Below, in pieces: positions 40,637-49,250 of a DNA stretch of 64,000 nucleotides. Made by a program: the position numbers and the translations under genes. The notes under the pieces are model-generated. The model was not told where the DNA came from and did no database searches. It saw only the letters and a list, made by a program, of their open reading frames with translations. Source of the DNA: Kineococcus rubinsiae (GTDB lineage Bacteria; Actinomycetota; Actinomycetes; Actinomycetales; Kineococcaceae); contig NZ_VWPY01000001.1 in assembly GCF_011839805.1 (NCBI RefSeq), positions 248,001 to 312,000 of the forward strand, in the 5' to 3' direction. The stretch's first letter is position 1. Each line of letters starts with the position of its first letter.

Positions 40637-40685
40637 GTGAGGCGCACGAAACCCAGACTTGATCCGGTGGTGACCAGCCGGAAAC
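40637..40685 (+). promoter_or_regulatory. Two GlnR-box-like sites before the nit operon
   Basis: GTGAG-N6-GAAAC at 40637-40652 and GTGAC-N6-GAAAC at 40670-40685 match the actinobacterial GlnR half-site pattern GTnAC-N6-GAAAC, the second exactly and the first with one change. They are 17 bases apart, so their starts lie about three helical turns (33 bases) apart and would be on the same DNA face. They end 23 bases before the first gene start. Confidence 0.65.
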
Positions 40686-40708: not shown

Positions 40709-41605
40709 GTGACCCCGTCCCGGACGCACGACGCGCACCGCCACCTCGGCCGGCTGCCCGCGTACCCGTTCTACGGCGGCCCGCCCGTGAACCCCGACAC
40801 CACGGCGCGCGAGGAGATCGCGGACCTGCTCGCGGACCTCGACGCCGAGGGCACCGAGCGGGCCCTGCTGCTGCCGAACTACGGCGTCCCCGTCGCGGAG
40901 GCCTCCTTCGCCCTCAACGACCTCGTCCTGGAGACCACGGCGAAGGACGACCGGTTCGTGTGCGGGTTGTGGACGTCGCCGCGGGCGCAGGACGCGGCCC
41001 TCACCGACGCCGCCCTGGCCCTGGCCGGCGAGGCCGGTGTCGTCGCCCTGAAGACGAGCTTCCTGCTGGGCGGTGGCGTCGACGACCCCACCTCGCAGCC
41101 GCAGCTGGAGAGGATCTTCGCCACGGCCCGCGACCGGGACCTCGTCGTCCACGTCCACACCTCCCCCGGCGCGGCCTCGGACATCGACGAGGTCGGCAAG
41201 CTCGTCGAGCGCTACGGCGACGACGTCCGCATCCACCTCGTCCACCTCGGCGGCGGGATGAGCGCGCACATCAAGCTCATCAGCGGCCGGTTCTTCGACT
41301 GGATCGAGGCCGGCAAGAAGGTCTACACCGACACGAGCTGGGCCATCGGGTTCGCCCCCCGCTGGCTGGCCCGCGAGGTCGAGCGGCGTGGGATGGGCGC
41401 CGACCGCGTCCTGTTCGCCAGCGACGAGCCCTGGGGCGACCACGCGGGCGAGCTCGCCCGCCTGCAGGCCGCCGCCGGGGACGGCGAGCTCGCGCGGATG
41501 TTCCTGCGCGACAACTTCTCCACCCTGTACTCCCGTCCACCCCGCGCGACGGGCGGCACCACCGGAACGACCGCAGCAGCGACAACCCCGAGGAGCTCGA
41601 CGTGA
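40709..41605 (+). CDS. Amidohydrolase (TIM-barrel metal hydrolase), first gene of nit operon
   Basis: The 298-residue protein has the amidohydrolase-2 layout: HDAHRHLG (HxH metal pair), VHVHTSPGAASDIDE, RIHLVHLGGGMSAH and the metal Asp in LFASDEPWGDHAGEL. These enzymes hydrolyse or decarboxylate small ring or acid substrates. It ends in a short low-complexity tail. GTG at 40709 is the only suitable start after the GlnR-like sites. Its stop overlaps the next gene by four bases, so it belongs to the operon, and its hydrolytic role may open a nitrogen-containing ring. Confidence 0.82.
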   Translation: MTPSRTHDAHRHLGRLPAYPFYGGPPVNPDTTAREEIADLLADLDAEGTERALLLPNYGVPVAEASFALNDLVLETTAKDDRFVCGLWTSPRAQDAALTDAALALAGEAGVVALKTSFLLGGGVDDPTSQPQLERIFATARDRDLVVHVHTSPGAASDIDEVGKLVERYGDDVRIHLVHLGGGMSAHIKLISGRFFDWIEAGKKVYTDTSWAIGFAPRWLAREVERRGMGADRVLFASDEPWGDHAGELARLQAAAGDGELARMFLRDNFSTLYSRPPRATGGTTGTTAAATTPRSST

Positions 41606-42156
41606 CCCAGACCACCACCTCCCCCGCGACCACCACCGAGGTCGACGCGCTCATCGCGGCGAACATCGCCGCGTCCCTCGCGGAGATCCCGCACCCCAGC
41701 CAGCCCAAGGGCACGAACATCTACGGCACGACCAAGGTGTTCCCCGACTACCAGGCCGAGGGCGGGGAGACCTACTTCACCCTCGTGCACGGCATCGCCC
41801 ACGAGTCCTCGGTCAGCTTCGTCGCCGTCCTGCAGGCCACCCGCGCCCTGCGCAAGGGGTTCGACTCGGCCATCTACTTCTACGGGCCCGGGTCGATGAA
41901 CTGCATCGCCACCCGCGGGTTCCCCACCGTCGGCGACTCGGGGTTCCCCGGCGAGCAGAACATCAACGGCGCCCTGGAGACGTTCATCGCCGAGGGCGGG
42001 ACGGTGTACTGCTGCCGCTTCGGCCTGGCGCTGCACGGCAACCGCGAGGAGGACCTCATCGCCGGCGTGATCCCGTGCCACCCGCTCGACGTCCAGGACG
42101 CCGTCATCCACTACGCGCGCAAGGGCGCGATCATCAACTCCACCTACATGGTCTGA
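41602..42156 (+). CDS. MSMEG_0572/Sll0783-family nitrogen-starvation protein
   Basis: The 184-residue protein has the family signature: IPHPSQPKGTNIYGTTKVFPDY, ETYFTLVHGIAHESSVSFVAVLQATR, YGPGSMNC (a Cys), GFPGEQNINGALETFI and GGTVYCCRFGLALHG, ending at ARKGAIINSTYMV. Its counterparts are annotated as induced by nitrogen starvation in M. smegmatis and Synechocystis. The chemistry is unknown; the fold may be DsrE/F-like. GTG at 41602 overlaps the previous stop and has GAGGAGCT upstream. Confidence 0.9.
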   Translation: MTQTTTSPATTTEVDALIAANIAASLAEIPHPSQPKGTNIYGTTKVFPDYQAEGGETYFTLVHGIAHESSVSFVAVLQATRALRKGFDSAIYFYGPGSMNCIATRGFPTVGDSGFPGEQNINGALETFIAEGGTVYCCRFGLALHGNREEDLIAGVIPCHPLDVQDAVIHYARKGAIINSTYMV

Positions 42157-42188: not shown

Positions 42189-43289
42189 GTGAGCTGCGCG
42201 AACGCGACCCCGGCCCCGGGCGGGGACGTCAGGACGCGGGTGGACCTGGCGATCCGCGGGGTCCGGCTGGCCGCGCCCGTGCGCCGCACGGGCGGGGCCG
42301 GGCCGAGCGACGACGGCCACGTCGTGCTGGACGGCCTGGCCACCGCGCTGCCGCTGCGTGCGGACAGCCCCTACCTCGTCCGGGACGGGCGCATCCTCCG
42401 CGAGGAGCTGGGCGCCGTGACCGACCTCGGCGTCGACGTCGAGCCCGTGCGACGGCCGGCGTTCTACGACCTGAGCACGGCCGACGGCGTCCCCTACGAG
42501 AAGATCGCCCGGCTGCACGGCAGCGAGGTGCTGGCCACGACCGTGGTGCAGACCTGCTCGCGCTACGACCCGGCGGACCGCTGCCGGTTCTGCGCCATCG
42601 AGTCCTCGCTGGAGTCGGGGGCGACCATCGCGGTGAAGACCCCGGCGATGCTGGCCGAGGTCGCCGAGGCGGCCGTCCGCCTCGACGGCGTCAAGCACGT
42701 CGTCCTGACGACGGGGACGTCGACGGCGCCGGACCGGGGCGCCCGGCACCTGGCCCGGTGCGTGCGGGCGATCCGGGAGGCGGTGCCAGGCCTCCCCGTC
42801 CAGGTGCAGTGCGAACCGCCCGCCGACCTCGCGACCCTCACCGAGCTGAAGGAGGCCGGAGCCGACTCGATCGGCATCCACGTCGAGTCCCTCGACGACG
42901 CGGTCCGGCGCCGCTGGATGCCCGGCAAGTCGACCGTGACGCTGGCCGAGTACCGGGCCGCGTGGCGCGAGGCCGTACGCGTCTTCGGCCGCAACCAGGT
43001 CTCCACCTACCTGCTCGTGGGCCTCGGCGAGGACCCGGACGAGCTCGTCGCCGGGGCCGCGGAACTCGTCGAGATGGGCGTCTACCCGTTCGTCGTGCCG
43101 TTCCGGCCGCTCGCGGGAACGCTCGCGGTCGACGAGGACGGCGCCCTCGCCCCGGAGGCCGCGGTGCTCGAGGACGTCTCGCGCCGGGTGGCGGAGGCGC
43201 TGCGGGCCGGCGGGATGCGGGGCGCCGACCAGATGGCCGGGTGCGCGGCGTGCGGCGCCTGCTCCGTGCTGCAGAACCTGAGCGCCTGA
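42189..43289 (+). CDS. MSMEG_0568-family radical SAM protein
   Basis: The 366-residue protein is a radical SAM enzyme with an unusual cluster motif CSRYDPADRCRFC (Cx8Cx2C), where most of the superfamily has Cx3Cx2C. GGATS-like glycine-rich and QCEPPADLATLTELKEAGADSIGIHVES core motifs follow. The C-terminus ends with CAACGAC (CxxCxxC), possibly an auxiliary cluster. It should generate a 5'-deoxyadenosyl radical to rearrange an unknown substrate. GTG at 42189 follows GAGGAAC. It overlaps the next gene as TGATG. Confidence 0.9.
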   Translation: MSCANATPAPGGDVRTRVDLAIRGVRLAAPVRRTGGAGPSDDGHVVLDGLATALPLRADSPYLVRDGRILREELGAVTDLGVDVEPVRRPAFYDLSTADGVPYEKIARLHGSEVLATTVVQTCSRYDPADRCRFCAIESSLESGATIAVKTPAMLAEVAEAAVRLDGVKHVVLTTGTSTAPDRGARHLARCVRAIREAVPGLPVQVQCEPPADLATLTELKEAGADSIGIHVESLDDAVRRRWMPGKSTVTLAEYRAAWREAVRVFGRNQVSTYLLVGLGEDPDELVAGAAELVEMGVYPFVVPFRPLAGTLAVDEDGALAPEAAVLEDVSRRVAEALRAGGMRGADQMAGCAACGACSVLQNLSA

Positions 43290-44713
43290 TGCAGCTGTTC
43301 ACGCCGCACGCGCTCGTGCGGCCTCCCGAGGTCAGCGTCCTGGCGGGCCTGCCCCGGCAGCGGCCGCCGTTCACGGTCACCGTGGCCGACGGTGCCGGGG
43401 AGGCGGCCTACCTGGCGCTGCGCCGGGAGGTGTTCGTCGCCGAGCAGGGCCTGTTCGCGGGCGACGACCGCGACGACGTCGACGACGACCCCCGCCGCCG
43501 GGTCCTCGTCGCCCGGGCGCCCGACGGCACCGTCGTGGGCGGGGTCCGGCTCGCCCCGGCCGTGCCCGGCCCCGACCTGGGCTGGTGGCGCGGCAGCCGC
43601 CTCGTGGTGCGCCGCGAGGCCCGCACCCTCGGCGGCACGGGTTCCGCCCTCGTGCGGGCCGCGTGCGCCCACGCCGACGAGCTCGGCGCGCTGCGCTTCG
43701 ACGCGACCGTCCAGGCGGCCAACGAGGTGCTGTTCCGGCGCCTGGGCTGGGAGCGGCTGCGCGACGTCGTCGTGCAGGGAGCTCCCCACGTGCTGGTGCA
43801 GCACCCGACGGCCCGCGTGCAGCGGCTCGTGGACGCCACGAAGGCCCCGCTGGCGGGGGTGCTCGCAGCCCTCGACACCGGTCCCGACGCCCTCGGCGGC
43901 CGGGGGTTCCGCGGCGACGACGGGGCACCCGTGCCCGGTAGCGACCTCGTGGCGGCCTGCGACGCGATCCTGCCGTCCCTGGTCGAGCGCGACCCGGAGT
44001 GGGCCGGCTGGTGCGCGGTCCTCGTGAACCTCAACGACCTCGCCGCCATGGGCGCGGAACCCGTCGGGATCCTCGACGCGCTGGCCGCGCAGGACGCGGC
44101 CGCGGCCCGGCGGATCGTCAGCGGCCTGCGGGCCGCGACGGACGCGTGGGGCGTGAGCGTCCTCGGCGGCCACACCCAGCTCGGCGTCGCCGCCGCCCTG
44201 TCCGTCACGGCCCTGGGCCGCACGGCCGACCCGGTGCCCGCCGGGGGCGGCCGCGCCGGGGACGTCGTGTCCCTCACCGCCGACCTGGGCGGCGGCTGGC
44301 GGCCCGGGCACTCCGGGCAGTGGGACTCCACGTCCGGCCGGAGCCGGGAGGAGCTGCGCGCCATGGGTTCCTTCGTCGCCCGCTCGCGGCCCGACGCCGC
44401 GAAGGACGTCTCGATGGCCGGGTTCGTCGGCACCACCGGGATGCTCGCCGAGGCGAGCGGGTGCGCCGCCGAGATCGACGTGGCCGCCGTCCCCCGCCCC
44501 GCCGGCGCGGGCGTCGGCGACTGGTTCACCTGCTTCCCCGGGTTCGGGATGGTCACGGCCTCCCGGCCCGGCTGGCGGGCGGAACCCGCGGGGCCGGCGA
44601 CGACGGCCGCCTGCGGGCGCCTCGTGGCGGGGGCCGGGGTCAGCCTGCGCTGGCCTGACGGAGAGGTGACCCGGACCGTCCGGGACACCGTGACCGGATG
44701 GGGACAGGCATGA
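43289..44713 (+). CDS. MSMEG_0567/Sll0786-family: GNAT acetyltransferase fused to AIR-synthase-like domain
   Basis: The 474-residue fusion has a GNAT half: AYLALRREVFVAEQGLF and the acetyl-CoA loop VVRREARTLGGTGSALVRAAC (up to about residue 165). An AIR-synthase/PurM-like half follows with VNLNDLAAMGAEPVGILDALA (near 248), LGGHTQLG and the ATP-binding GTTGMLAEASG region. The first half should acylate an amine, the second should use ATP to activate or phosphorylate a substrate. Start ATG overlaps the radical SAM stop by one base; its stop overlaps the nitrilase start by four. Confidence 0.9.
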   Translation: MQLFTPHALVRPPEVSVLAGLPRQRPPFTVTVADGAGEAAYLALRREVFVAEQGLFAGDDRDDVDDDPRRRVLVARAPDGTVVGGVRLAPAVPGPDLGWWRGSRLVVRREARTLGGTGSALVRAACAHADELGALRFDATVQAANEVLFRRLGWERLRDVVVQGAPHVLVQHPTARVQRLVDATKAPLAGVLAALDTGPDALGGRGFRGDDGAPVPGSDLVAACDAILPSLVERDPEWAGWCAVLVNLNDLAAMGAEPVGILDALAAQDAAAARRIVSGLRAATDAWGVSVLGGHTQLGVAAALSVTALGRTADPVPAGGGRAGDVVSLTADLGGGWRPGHSGQWDSTSGRSREELRAMGSFVARSRPDAAKDVSMAGFVGTTGMLAEASGCAAEIDVAAVPRPAGAGVGDWFTCFPGFGMVTASRPGWRAEPAGPATTAACGRLVAGAGVSLRWPDGEVTRTVRDTVTGWGQA

Positions 44714-45606
44714 GGCTCGCCGCAGTCGCGGACAACTTCGGGCGCGACCTGGACGCGACCTACGCCCGGATGGCCGCGATCCTCGAGACCGCCCGGGGCG
44801 AGGGCACCGCTCTGGTGGCGTTCCCCGAGGCGTGCCTGGGCGGGTACCTGTCCAGCCTGGGTTCCGCCGAGGACCGGGGGACGGCCTCGAGCCGCCGCAC
44901 GCGCTCCGGTCCGCCCGCGCTCCGCCTCGACGGGCCCGAGCTGCGGCGCGTGGCCCGGCTCGCGGGGGACGTCGTGGTCGTCGTGGGGTTCTGCGAGGAC
45001 GCCGGCGACGACCGCTACAACACCGCCGTCGCGCTGACCGGTGACGGGATCCTCGGCGTGCACCGCAAGGTGCACCAGCCGCTGGGCGAGAACCTCTCCT
45101 ACGCCGCGGGTTCGGTGTTCGAGGCGTTCGACTCGCCCGTGGGCCGCATGGGGATGCAGATCTGCTACGACAAGGCGTTCCCCGAGGCCGCCCGCGCCGC
45201 GGCCCTCGACGGGGCCCGGATCGTCGTGAGCATCTCCGCCTGGCCCGGGTCCCGCACGGCCGCCGCGGCCGACCTCGCCCAGGACCGCTGGCGCCGGCGC
45301 TTCGACCTCTACGACCAGGCGCGGGCGCTGGAGAACCAGGTCGTCTGGGTCGCGGCGAACCAGGCCGGGGAGTTCGGCTCCCTGCGCTTCGTGGGCAACG
45401 CCAAGGTCGTCGGCCCCGGCGGGGAGGTGCTGGCCAGCACGGGCACCGAGGCCGGGGTCGCCGTGGCCGACGTCGACGTGGAGCAGGAGCTCGCCCTCGC
45501 GCGGCGGGCGATGTTCAACCTGCGCGACCGCCGTCCGGACGTCTACGGGGCGGTCGTGGAACCCAACGGTCACGCCGTCCGCGAGGAGGCCCCGAGCCTT
45601 GCCTGA
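44710..45606 (+). CDS. Carbon-nitrogen hydrolase (amidase branch), intact triad
   Basis: The 298-residue nitrilase-fold protein has the complete catalytic set: Glu40 in FPEACLGGY, Lys120 in HRKVHQP and Cys152 in QICYDKAFPE. The C-Y-D context resembles carbamoylputrescine and other amidases; true nitrilases such as Nit6803 have C-W-E. So it probably hydrolyses an amide or carbamoyl group. ATG 44710 overlaps the previous stop as ATGA; ATG 44698 is possible. The nitrogen-starvation context suggests it releases ammonia or carbamate. Confidence 0.9.
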   Translation: MRLAAVADNFGRDLDATYARMAAILETARGEGTALVAFPEACLGGYLSSLGSAEDRGTASSRRTRSGPPALRLDGPELRRVARLAGDVVVVVGFCEDAGDDRYNTAVALTGDGILGVHRKVHQPLGENLSYAAGSVFEAFDSPVGRMGMQICYDKAFPEAARAAALDGARIVVSISAWPGSRTAAAADLAQDRWRRRFDLYDQARALENQVVWVAANQAGEFGSLRFVGNAKVVGPGGEVLASTGTEAGVAVADVDVEQELALARRAMFNLRDRRPDVYGAVVEPNGHAVREEAPSLA

Positions 45607-45898
45607 GATGACGTTCACGGTCCGCTGGCCCGATGCGAGCGTGCAGCACTGCTACTCCCCCTCCCTCGTCGTCCACGACCACCTCGACGTCGGCGCCGAG
45701 TACCCCGTCAGCGAGTTCCTCGCCCGGGCCGCGACGGCCCTGACCACCGCGAGCGAACGGGTCCGCGCCCGGTACGGCATGACCTGCACCTCGGCGCTGG
45801 CCCAGCTCGACGACCTCACCGCCCGCGCGGCGACCTTCGCCCCGGACGCGCCCGTGCGCGTCCTGGGCCTCGAACCGCCGCTGCCTCCCCCGACCTGA
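45599..45898 (+). CDS. MSMEG_0570-family nitrogen-starvation protein
   Basis: The 99-residue protein begins MPEMTFTVRWPDASVQHCYSPSLV, the exact opening style of this small family. YPVSEFLARAATALTTASERVRARYGMTCTSALAQL follows; the central part is residues 34-69. TTG at 45599 (overlapping the nitrilase stop by eight bases) gives the family start MPEM; ATG 45608 is the alternative. Function is unknown. It may be a small carrier or partner subunit for the neighbouring enzymes. Confidence 0.85.
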   Translation: MPEMTFTVRWPDASVQHCYSPSLVVHDHLDVGAEYPVSEFLARAATALTTASERVRARYGMTCTSALAQLDDLTARAATFAPDAPVRVLGLEPPLPPPT

Positions 45899-45923: not shown

Positions 45924-47249
45924 GTGAGCACTCCCGAGCACCACGCCGTCGTCATCGTGGGCGCCGGCCAGGCCGGACTGTCCCTCAGCTGGCACCTGAC
46001 CCGGCGCGGCACCGACCACGTCCTGCTGGAGCGGGACACCGTCGCGCACGAGTGGCGCGACGGCCGCTGGGACGAGTTCACCCTCGTCACCCCGAACTTC
46101 CAGTGCCGCCTGCCCGGCTGGAGCTACGGCGGGGAGTTCGGGGGCACCGACCCCGACGGGTTCATGCGCCGCGACGAGGTCCACCGCTTCGTCACCGCCT
46201 ACGCCCGCTCGTTCGGGGCCCCCGTGCGCGAGGGCGTCGAGGTCACCGACCTGCAGCAGGGCGGCCCCGCCGCGTTCACGCTGGCCACCACGGCCGGGAC
46301 GTTCACGGCCGACCAGGTCGTCATCGCCACCGGCGGGTACCACACGCCCGTCGTCCCGCGGGCGGCCGAGCGGATCTCCCCCGACGTGCGGCAGCTGCAC
46401 TCCTCCGCCTACCGCGGCGCGGCGCAGCTGCCGGCGGGCGCCGTGCTCGTGGTGGGGTCGGGGCAGTCGGGGGCCCAGATCGCCGAGGACCTGCACCTCG
46501 CCGGCCGGACCGTGCACCTCGCCGTGGGCGCCGCGCCCCGCTGCGCCCGCACCTACCGCGGGCGCGACTGCATCGCCTGGCTGGAGGACATGGGCACCTA
46601 CGACGTCACGGCGGTCGAGGTCCCGGGTGGTGCTGCGGCGCAGGAGAAGACGAACCACTACATGACGGGCCGCGACGGCGGCCGCGACATCGACCTGCGC
46701 GGCTTCGCCCTCGAGGGGATGCAGCTGCACGGCCGCCTCGAGGACGTCCGCGACGGCGTGGCCCGGTTCTCCCCCACCCTCGGGGCCGCGCTCGACCACG
46801 CCGACTCCGTCGCCGAGAGCATCAAGGACGCGATCGACCGGTGGATCGCCCTGCAGGGCATCGACGCACCGGTCGAGGACCGCTACCGGCCGGTCTGGCG
46901 GCCGGGCCCCGAGGTCCTCGACCTCGACCTCGCCGCCGCCGGCATCACCTCGGTGGTCTGGAGCGTCGGGTACCGCGCCGACCACCGCTGGGTCGGGCCC
47001 GGCGTCTTCGACGGCCGCGGCCGCCCCCGCCAGACGCGCGGCGTCACGGGAACCCCAGGACTGTTCTTCCTCGGCCTGCCGTGGATGCACACGTGGGGTT
47101 CCGGCCGCTTCGCCGGCATCGCCCGCGACGCGCAGTTCACCGCGGACCAGATCACCGCGCACCAGATCGCGACAGGTCCGGTCGCGGGCCCCACGGCCCG
47201 GGTCCCCCAGCCGCAGCACGCGCAGCGCGAGACCGCGGACGCGCGCTGA
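45924..47249 (+). CDS. MSMEG_0569-family flavin-dependent oxidoreductase
   Basis: The 441-residue protein has an N-terminal FAD motif VVIVGAGQAGLSLSWHL (residues 8-24) and a second nucleotide motif VVGSGQSGAQIAEDLHLAG at about 176 for NAD(P)H. This is the two-domain pattern of N-hydroxylating or flavin monooxygenases. LPWMHTWGSGRFAGIARDAQFTAD marks the C-terminus. It probably oxidises an amine or ring nitrogen in the pathway. GTG at 45924; 25 bases after the small family gene. Confidence 0.9.
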   Translation: MSTPEHHAVVIVGAGQAGLSLSWHLTRRGTDHVLLERDTVAHEWRDGRWDEFTLVTPNFQCRLPGWSYGGEFGGTDPDGFMRRDEVHRFVTAYARSFGAPVREGVEVTDLQQGGPAAFTLATTAGTFTADQVVIATGGYHTPVVPRAAERISPDVRQLHSSAYRGAAQLPAGAVLVVGSGQSGAQIAEDLHLAGRTVHLAVGAAPRCARTYRGRDCIAWLEDMGTYDVTAVEVPGGAAAQEKTNHYMTGRDGGRDIDLRGFALEGMQLHGRLEDVRDGVARFSPTLGAALDHADSVAESIKDAIDRWIALQGIDAPVEDRYRPVWRPGPEVLDLDLAAAGITSVVWSVGYRADHRWVGPGVFDGRGRPRQTRGVTGTPGLFFLGLPWMHTWGSGRFAGIARDAQFTADQITAHQIATGPVAGPTARVPQPQHAQRETADAR

Positions 47250-47251
47250 CC

Positions 47252-48391
47252 GTGCGGATCGCGCTGACCACCTACTCCACCAAGCCCCGCGGCGGGGTCG
47301 TCCACACGCTGGCCCTGGCCGAGGCCCTCGTCGAGGCCGGGGCGCAGGTCAGCGTGTGGACGCTCGGCCGCGGCGGTGACGGCACGTTCTTCCGCCCCGT
47401 CGACCCGCGCGTCGACGTGCGCGTCGTGCCGTTCGAGGCGTCGCCGCACGAGAGCGTCGGGCACCGCATCCTGCGCTCGATCGAGGTGCTGCGCGCGGGT
47501 TTCGACCCGGCGGGCTACGACGTCGTGCACGCCCAGGACTGCATCAGCGCGAACGCCGTCGGGCGCTGCGTGCGCACGGTCCACCACCTCGACACGTTCA
47601 CGACGCCGGAGCTCGCGGCCTGCCACGAGCGGGCCGTCGTCGCCCCGCACGCCCTGGTCTGCGTCTCGGCCGCCGTCGCGGCCGAGGTGCGCGCGGGCTG
47701 GGGCCGCTCCCCCGCCGTCATCCCGAACGGCGTGGACGGCGCCCCGTTCGCGGCCGCCGCCGCGGACACCCCCGCCGCCCGGGCCGCCCGCTCCGCGTGG
47801 CGCACGCGGTTCGGGCGCTACGTCGTCGCGGTGGGCGGCATCGAACCCCGTAAGGGCAGCACCGACCTCCTGCGGGCCGTGGCCCTGCTGCGGCGCGACC
47901 TGCCCGACGTCTCCCTCGTCGTCGCCGGCGGCGAGACCCTGTTCGACTACCGCGACTACCGCGCGGAGTTCGACCGGCTCGCCGGGGAGCTCGGGGTCGA
48001 CCCGCACGTGCTCGGCCCGGTGCCGGTCGACGACCTGCCCTCCCTCGTGGCCGGCGCCGCCGCGATGGGTTTCGTCTCCACCAAGGAGGGTTTCGGCCTG
48101 GCCGCCATGGAGGCGCTGGCCGCCGGGGTCCCGCTGGTGACGCGCGACCTGCCCGTCCTGCGCGAGGTGTTCGACGGCGCCGCGGCCTTCGCCACCGATC
48201 CGGCCTCCACCGCCGCCGCGCTGCACGACGTCCTCACCGACCCGGGGTCGCGGGAGCTGCGGCGCCGGCGCGCGGCGGGCGCGGAACTGGTGGCCCGCCA
48301 CACCTGGTCCGCGGCGGCCCTCGCCCACCTGGAGCTCTACGGGCGCCTGGTGGCGGCCGGGAGGACGACGGGTGCCGACTACGCTCGATGA
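47252..48391 (+). CDS. MSMEG_0565-family glycosyltransferase
   Basis: The 379-residue GT-B family-4 type enzyme has the donor-binding pattern: GGIEPRKGSTDLLRAVALL (about 200-218) and FVSTKEGFGLAAMEALAAGVPLV (about 270-292, with the E-x7-E type acidic pair). The N-terminal acceptor half starts VRIALTTYSTKPRGGVVHTL. It should add a sugar to an unknown acceptor. GTG at 47252 follows the flavin gene stop by two bases. Its end overlaps the last gene by 20 bases. Confidence 0.9.
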   Translation: MRIALTTYSTKPRGGVVHTLALAEALVEAGAQVSVWTLGRGGDGTFFRPVDPRVDVRVVPFEASPHESVGHRILRSIEVLRAGFDPAGYDVVHAQDCISANAVGRCVRTVHHLDTFTTPELAACHERAVVAPHALVCVSAAVAAEVRAGWGRSPAVIPNGVDGAPFAAAAADTPAARAARSAWRTRFGRYVVAVGGIEPRKGSTDLLRAVALLRRDLPDVSLVVAGGETLFDYRDYRAEFDRLAGELGVDPHVLGPVPVDDLPSLVAGAAAMGFVSTKEGFGLAAMEALAAGVPLVTRDLPVLREVFDGAAAFATDPASTAAALHDVLTDPGSRELRRRRAAGAELVARHTWSAAALAHLELYGRLVAAGRTTGADYAR

Positions 48392-49250
48392 GGTGTCGCA
48401 CCCCGTCCGCATCGCCGCCGCGGCCGCCCACTTCGGGCGCGACCTCGACCGCGGGGTGGAGAAGGCGCTGGGCATCGTCGCGGGCGCGCGGGAGGGCGGG
48501 ATCGACCTGCTCGTGCTGCCGCACGGCACCCTGGGCGGTTACCTCTCCGACCTCGACGACCCGCACGCCGACGAGCTCCCGCCCGCCCTGGCCGTGGACG
48601 CCCCCGAGATCGCCGCGGTGGCCCGGGCCGCCGGGCCGATGACCGTCTGCCTGGGTTTCACCGAGGTCGACGTCGTCCACGGTTCTCCCGCGTGGTTCAG
48701 CGCCGCGGTGTGCGTCAGCGGGGACGGCGTCCTCGGCCGGCACCGCAAGGTCCACCAGCCCGCGGGCGAGGCGAAGGTGCTCTCGGCCGGCGACGGCTTC
48801 GCGGCGTTCGACACGCCCGCCGGGCGCCTGGGGATGCTGATCGACTACGACAAGACGTTCCCGGAGGCGAGCCGCTCGCTGGCCCTCGCCGGGGCGCACG
48901 CGATCGCGTGCCTGTCCGCGTGGCCGGCGAGCATCACCGACCGGGTCTCGCGCCTGTCGGCGGACCGGCAGTCGCGGCTCTTCGACCTGTACGACTCCTC
49001 GCGGGCGGCCGAGAACCAGGTCGTGTGGATCTCCTCGAACCAGACGGGGATCCAGGGGAACCTGAGGTTCCTGGGCCAGGCCAAGGTGGTCGGCCCCGGC
49101 GGGGACGTGCTGGCGCGCACCGGGTCCAAGGGTGGGCTGGCCGAGGTCTCCCTCGACGTCGAGCACGAGGTCGCCCGGGCCCGCCGCACGCTGCACCACC
49201 TCGCGGAACGTCGTCCCGACGCCTACCGCGTCGACCTGCCACCCCGGTGA
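48372..49250 (+). CDS. Nitrilase-fold protein lacking catalytic Glu and Cys
   Basis: The 292-residue protein is a paralogue of the operon's carbon-nitrogen hydrolase (shared HRKVHQP, YDKTFPEA, NQVVWISSNQ, AKVVGPGG). Two catalytic residues are replaced: Glu by His51 (LPHGTLGGY) and Cys by Asp158 (LIDYDK). Lys126 is kept. It is therefore probably not a hydrolase, but may bind substrate, form a heteromer with the active paralogue or have new chemistry. GTG 48372 has GGGAGG upstream; GTG 48393 is an alternative with one-base gap. Confidence 0.85.
   Translation: MPTTLDEVSHPVRIAAAAAHFGRDLDRGVEKALGIVAGAREGGIDLLVLPHGTLGGYLSDLDDPHADELPPALAVDAPEIAAVARAAGPMTVCLGFTEVDVVHGSPAWFSAAVCVSGDGVLGRHRKVHQPAGEAKVLSAGDGFAAFDTPAGRLGMLIDYDKTFPEASRSLALAGAHAIACLSAWPASITDRVSRLSADRQSRLFDLYDSSRAAENQVVWISSNQTGIQGNLRFLGQAKVVGPGGDVLARTGSKGGLAEVSLDVEHEVARARRTLHHLAERRPDAYRVDLPPR

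Follow-up and report, generated by a model that had tools for sequence, protein, structure and literature searches.

In this study, the nitrilase-fold gene that closes a nitrogen-starvation cluster in the window (the whole stretch of 64,000 nucleotides analysed, from Kineococcus rubinsiae) was found to encode a conserved pseudoenzyme, here named PSD, with lost catalytic residues, purifying selection and a defined clade. An intact paralogue, here named ACT, is encoded in the same cluster (Table 1). We are highly confident that PSD is a selected protein that does not use the Cys chemistry of its family. Clusters with PSD are found across many soil actinobacteria. As for its function, we tentatively prefer, at slightly less than an even chance, the reading that PSD is a non-catalytic partner that would associate with ACT and affect it.

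Table 1. Genes, active-site codons and regulatory-like sites of the cluster (positions in the window)
Feature	Position	Strand	Remark
Two GlnR-box-like sites 5' of the cluster	40637..40685	+	Motif match
Amidohydrolase (PF04909)	40709..41605	+	Heads the cluster here; profile match
MSMEG_0572/Sll0783 family nitrogen-starvation protein	41602..42156	+	TIGR04044
MSMEG_0568 family radical SAM protein	42189..43289	+	TIGR04043
MSMEG_0567, GNAT domain fused to AIR-synthase-like domain	43289..44713	+	TIGR04045, TIGR04050
ACT, intact CN-hydrolase paralogue (E40, K120, E127, C152)	44710..45606	+	Corresponds to MSMEG_0571
MSMEG_0570 family protein	45608..45898	+	TIGR04042
MSMEG_0569 family flavin-dependent oxidoreductase	45924..47249	+	TIGR04046
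MSMEG_0565 family glycosyltransferase	47252..48391	+	TIGR04047; 20 bp overlap with PSD
PSD, nitrilase-fold pseudoenzyme, 292 aa (H51, K126, E133, D158)	48372..49250	+	MSMEG_0566 orthologue by synteny
His51 codon CAC, catalytic Glu position	48522..48524	+	Orthologues D, H, G, Y, Q; never E
Lys126 codon AAG	48747-48749	+	Tetrad Lys retained in PSD
Glu133 codon GAG	48768-48770	+	Tetrad Glu retained in PSD
Asp158 codon GAC, catalytic Cys position	48843..48845	+	Asp in every orthologue read

The frame of PSD was intact from a GTG start codon (48372), GGAGG was located at 48360-48364, seven bases 5' of the start, and the glycosyltransferase stop codon lay inside PSD at 48389-48391; the in-frame copy with a ribosome site and an overlap described in the original prediction was thus found. 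An in-frame GTG at 48393, where the ORF of the genus orthologue L218 starts, is an alternative start. The scores of PSD and ACT against the Pfam profile CN_hydrolase (PF00795, cut-off 23.2 bits) were 94 and 132 bits, respectively. The AF2 model of PSD had a pLDDT of 94.3, and the predicted structure gave its best Z of 35.3 to amidases; by the alpha-beta-beta-alpha fold and the PF00795 profile, PSD is a member of the nitrilase superfamily. The model resembled MtCPA (N-carbamoylputrescine amidohydrolase, 5h8i) and the Pyrococcus horikoshii amidase (1j31, 6ypa) with a Z of about 34-35 and a deviation of 1.6-2.7 A over 253-277 residues, but the identity was just 23-26%, and the tetrad Glu and Cys are missing from PSD. 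The profile of the N-carbamoylputrescine amidase AguB (TIGR03381, cut-off 410 bits) gave only 68 bits for PSD and 101 bits for ACT.

Catalysis in this superfamily depends on a Glu-Lys-Cys triad or a Glu-Lys-Glu-Cys tetrad, and PSD lacks both, with His in the Glu position and Asp in the Cys position; its orthologues show the same loss. The original prediction had read the nitrilase scaffold, Lys126 and the two substitutions correctly, and Glu133 can be added to the retained residues. Its Glu40, Lys120 and Cys152 of ACT were confirmed too, and with Glu127 all four tetrad residues are present. The numbering of ACT starts from 44710; an upstream ATG at 44698 is an alternative start.

Of 11 genomes of the genus, 6 carry PSD, and the five orthologues outside the window are 71-86% identical to the window PSD. 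Orthologues were also found in 34 of 395 class genomes, in 35 of 198 Nocardioidaceae genomes and in a single genome from a different class. In the searches of the class, the family and the genus, the query was the whole protein, with no pattern containing Asp158, and position 158 was Asp in 34/34 class copies read. The 80 named loci came from a contig scan whose pattern includes Asp158, so the invariance of this residue is argued from the former searches and not from these loci. Lys126 and Asp158 were present in all 113 distinct PSD sequences, Glu133 was replaced by Asp in one, and His128, Pro130 and the AWP loop (183-185) were invariant. Position 51 was mostly D; His was not conserved beyond close relatives of the window PSD, and it occurred at separate places of the tree. 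Because position 51 drifts, the His found here is only a local variant, and the change shared by the whole family is Cys-to-Asp; of the two substitutions in the original prediction, Asp158 is kept in homologues and His51 varies. A role of His51 as a new catalytic residue was considered and dropped as a family trait.

In the tree, PSD formed one clade (SH-aLRT 94) whose sister was a group of intact stand-alone copies, and ACT formed a separate clade. The mean identity over 85 paired loci was 71% for PSD versus 63% for ACT. Within the genus, dN was about 0.08-0.28 and dS about 0.45-0.78, the latter probably underestimated owing to saturation, and dN was lower than dS for both genes. The clade, the intact frames and a conservation above that of ACT bear out the proposal that a degenerate copy is retained by selection.

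Hydrolysis in the nitrilase family proceeds through a thioester on the catalytic Cys; without the Cys there is no thioester. PSD has no such Cys; judging from its residues, the family mechanism is closed to it for both amides and nitriles, and it is very unlikely to work as an ordinary amidase or nitrilase. Because PSD is conserved too well for a dying gene, it probably has a non-hydrolytic job, for example as a partner subunit or a binding protein.

The partner reading starts from co-occurrence. In the class sample, 33 genomes carried both genes, 1 carried PSD alone and 16 carried ACT alone (seven of the 16 confirmed by reading the sequence and the remainder by score), that is, 33/34 PSD genomes had ACT. 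In Nocardioidaceae, 35/35 PSD genomes also had ACT, and neither gene was found alone. Fisher P values, which ignore phylogeny, were 8e-35 for the class and 1e-39 for Nocardioidaceae. PSD directly adjoins ACT in several lineages (L039, L041, L042, L044-L047, L207, L208, L214 and L215), and where the PSD cluster has no ACT (L090, L101 and L110), ACT is located elsewhere in the same genome. Some results weigh against this partnership, among them the one genome with PSD alone (G038) and the place of PSD in three genus members (L218-L220), both described below. In three split clusters, PSD remains with the glycosyltransferase, 0567 and the radical SAM gene and not with ACT. At locus L158 of the same genus (genome G007), 0572, 0568, 0567, ACT, 0570, 0569 and the glycosyltransferase are present and PSD is absent, which makes it a natural knock-out of PSD for comparison. 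Together with the 16 class genomes, it means that PSD is not essential to ACT. ACT differed between PSD-bearing and PSD-free genomes at positions 99, 208, 225 and 241, and the two sets also differ in phylogeny. In the split clusters (L174-L177 with L090, L101 and L110), ACT with 0569 and/or 0572 is located apart from the PSD portion, and 0572 is present in both places in two of these genomes.

In the nitrilase superfamily, the helices of the region around 185-215 form the main dimer surface, and we take the loop and helix 199-215 of PSD to be the would-be alpha6 of this surface. Sixteen positions, Asp158 and Thr162 among them, do not vary within PSD and carry other residues in ACT, and six of the 16 fall in 185-215 (Arg191, Arg194, Gln200, Leu203, Tyr207 and Ala213; expected 1.8, P 0.004). 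This cluster of PSD-specific positions is compatible with an altered oligomer surface. The A-interface is described in PMC6637149 and PMC6214922. PSD arose by a single ancient duplication, with Asp replacing the catalytic Cys. In the preferred reading, PSD and ACT would form mixed assemblies through the dimer or oligomer surfaces that nitrilases normally use. The fixed Lys126-Asp158-Glu133 site would then serve as a structural or ligand-sensing element, and PSD within the mixed assembly would tune the activity or specificity of ACT. Studies have shown that catalytically dead C182A nitrilase subunits pass their own substrate preference to active subunits (PMC6214922), and grass (Poaceae) nitrilases require heterocomplexes, according to work cited there. 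We preferred the ACT-partner reading because dead subunits can steer active ones and such heterocomplexes exist.

A second explanation, which we consider rather unlikely, is that PSD acts by itself as a binding or scaffold protein of the pathway, which would bind the cluster's intermediate in its retained pocket and pass it to the glycosyltransferase, MSMEG_0567 and the radical SAM protein, and not to ACT. In 79 of the 80 named loci, PSD and the glycosyltransferase are neighbours, and they stay together when the cluster splits; the invariant Lys126, His128, Pro130 and AWP loop, with the nearly invariant Glu133, would suit a binding pocket. The partial correlation of divergence, with other genes controlled, was highest for PSD with the glycosyltransferase and with 0567 (0.27 each) versus 0.10 for PSD with ACT; this test does not single out ACT and is confounded by common operon history and varied arrangements. 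However, loci L158-L165 have the glycosyltransferase, 0567 and ACT without PSD, and proteobacterial Nit1C clusters have the glycosyltransferase and 0567 without PSD. At L208, PSD adjoins ACT and no glycosyltransferase was seen within 14 kb, and inside the genus PSD is sometimes distant from the glycosyltransferase.

It is less likely again that PSD is still an enzyme but works by a different chemistry, in which Asp158, Lys126 and Glu133, together with position 51 (D or H in most orthologues), would make up a new acid-base, nucleophilic-carboxylate or metal-binding site. Every orthologue read has Asp at the Cys site, with no case of Ser, Ala or Gly, and two base changes are required for Cys to become Asp. 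The invariance of Lys126, the near-fixation of Glu133 (one Asp) and a constraint across the whole protein that exceeds that of the intact ACT also agree with this explanation. In contrast, position 51 is central to catalysis in the family, and a choice of D, H, G, Y or Q would be uncommon for such a residue. An invariant Lys-Asp pair could equally well come from a buried salt bridge, and a search of the open literature found no nitrilase-fold enzyme with Asp at the Cys site.

That PSD is a duplicate in decay, or that its substitutions are sequencing errors, is hardly credible: the missing Glu and Cys and one relic-like orphan are what this view can call on, and it is refuted for the family by recurrence of the same substitution in different species and families and in one other class, which makes Asp158 neither an error nor chance, by relatives at the locus that carry neither Glu nor Cys, and by intact frames, a conservation above that of ACT and retention through rearrangements. 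This orphan (genome G038, L173 8342-9205) has the otherwise-fixed Thr162 changed to Val, and no MSMEG_0572 gene, ACT or cluster was found in its genome; it looks like the remnant of a cluster since lost. PSD is tied to the cluster. Its place varies, and the claim that it is the last gene of the operon holds for the window and L216, where it lies at the 3' end, and not for other clusters even of the genus: it lies behind an AMP-ligase-like gene in L217 and 5' of GlnR-like boxes in L218-L220. The operon-end place is therefore only one of several, and in L218-L220 PSD is probably outside the GlnR-driven transcript, since it is located just 5' of the boxes. The AMP-ligase-like gene of L217 (6199-7640, minus strand) is between the glycosyltransferase and PSD.

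The cluster had matches above cut-off to the NCBIfam profiles TIGR04044, TIGR04042, TIGR04046, TIGR04043, TIGR04045, TIGR04050 and TIGR04047 together with two CN-hydrolase genes, which is the composition of the gpr cluster; relatives carry the same gene set. One GlnR-box-like site (40670-40685) is an exact GTNAC-N6-GNAAC, and the other (40637-40652), 33 bp upstream, has one mismatch. An exact box-like site precedes the cluster in 5/5 other genus clusters, with a second copy at equal spacing in 4/5. A scan for sigma-70 promoters and terminators found nothing. The nitrogen-starvation operon named in the original prediction agrees with these gene families, and the box-like sites suggest putative GlnR-type control. 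The amidohydrolase (PF04909) gene is common in Nocardioides-type clusters and outside the published eight-gene gpr cluster.

The closest known system is the MSMEG_0565-0572 gpr cluster (GlnR-dependent peroxide resistance) of Mycolicibacterium smegmatis (PMC6039565), with which eight gene families are in common. The gene order differs, there is one amidohydrolase gene extra here, and the control by GlnR in M. smegmatis has its counterpart here only in GlnR-box-like sites. In mycobacterial loci other than M. smegmatis itself, the order was 0572-ACT-0570-0569-0568-0567-PSD-0565, and PSD and ACT are therefore MSMEG_0566 and MSMEG_0571, respectively, by synteny. In nitrogen starvation of M. smegmatis, msmeg_0566 was up 8.9-fold and msmeg_0571 up 48-fold (PMC4222082). 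The gpr cluster gives mycobacteria peroxide resistance in nitrogen starvation, a phenotype not attributable to single genes (PMC6039565). The same study described MSMEG_0566 as a putative aliphatic amidase and possible contributor to nitrogen assimilation; this activity is unlikely, as neither the catalytic Cys nor the catalytic Glu is present in its orthologues. It also proposed that selenocysteine is inserted at the UGA stop of MSMEG_0571, so that translation continues into MSMEG_0569. In the window, the TGA of ACT directly precedes a separate 0570 gene, and this looks like an ordinary operon junction.

Public databases label PSD as 'carbon-nitrogen hydrolase family protein' or 'aliphatic amidase', and a search of the open literature found no description of a conserved nitrilase-fold pseudoenzyme family. 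With the catalytic Cys missing family-wide, the pathway model has one such hydrolase instead of two, and a precise question is raised, namely whether Asp158 or ACT is behind the function of MSMEG_0566. It is possible, though somewhat unlikely, that this would be a natural mixed CN-hydrolase in which Cys-to-Asp inactive subunits set the specificity, or an Asp-Lys-Glu enzyme that acts beyond amide and nitrile hydrolysis. Heteromeric plant nitrilases and mixtures with inactive C182A subunits (PMC6214922) show that a dead subunit can alter an active partner; in those mixtures the dead subunits were made by mutation in the laboratory, and the plant proteins are helical nitrilases, whereas a complex of PSD and ACT is a prediction.

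The gpr-type cluster is related to the Nit1C cluster of Pseudomonas and cyanobacteria (PMC11049912). The Nit1C clusters of Proteobacteria and cyanobacteria (NitC/Nit6803, TIGR04048) share the 0572, radical SAM, GNAT, AIR-synthase-like, 0570 and 0569 genes, and the 0565 glycosyltransferase is often present as well. Against the TIGR04048 profile (Nit6803 family nitrilase, cut-off 502.6 bits), ACT scored 36 bits and PSD had no match, and ACT was thereby ruled out as the Nit1C nitrilase; by profile scores, it is closer to N-carbamoylputrescine amidases. A search of the whole genome with this profile found no gene above the cut-off. Since proteobacterial Nit1C clusters (L154, L156) have one Nit6803-type nitrilase and no PSD, and the genome studied here has no TIGR04048 gene, the actinobacterial cluster appears to use ACT and PSD, which belong to a different branch of the superfamily, in place of the Nit6803 nitrilase.
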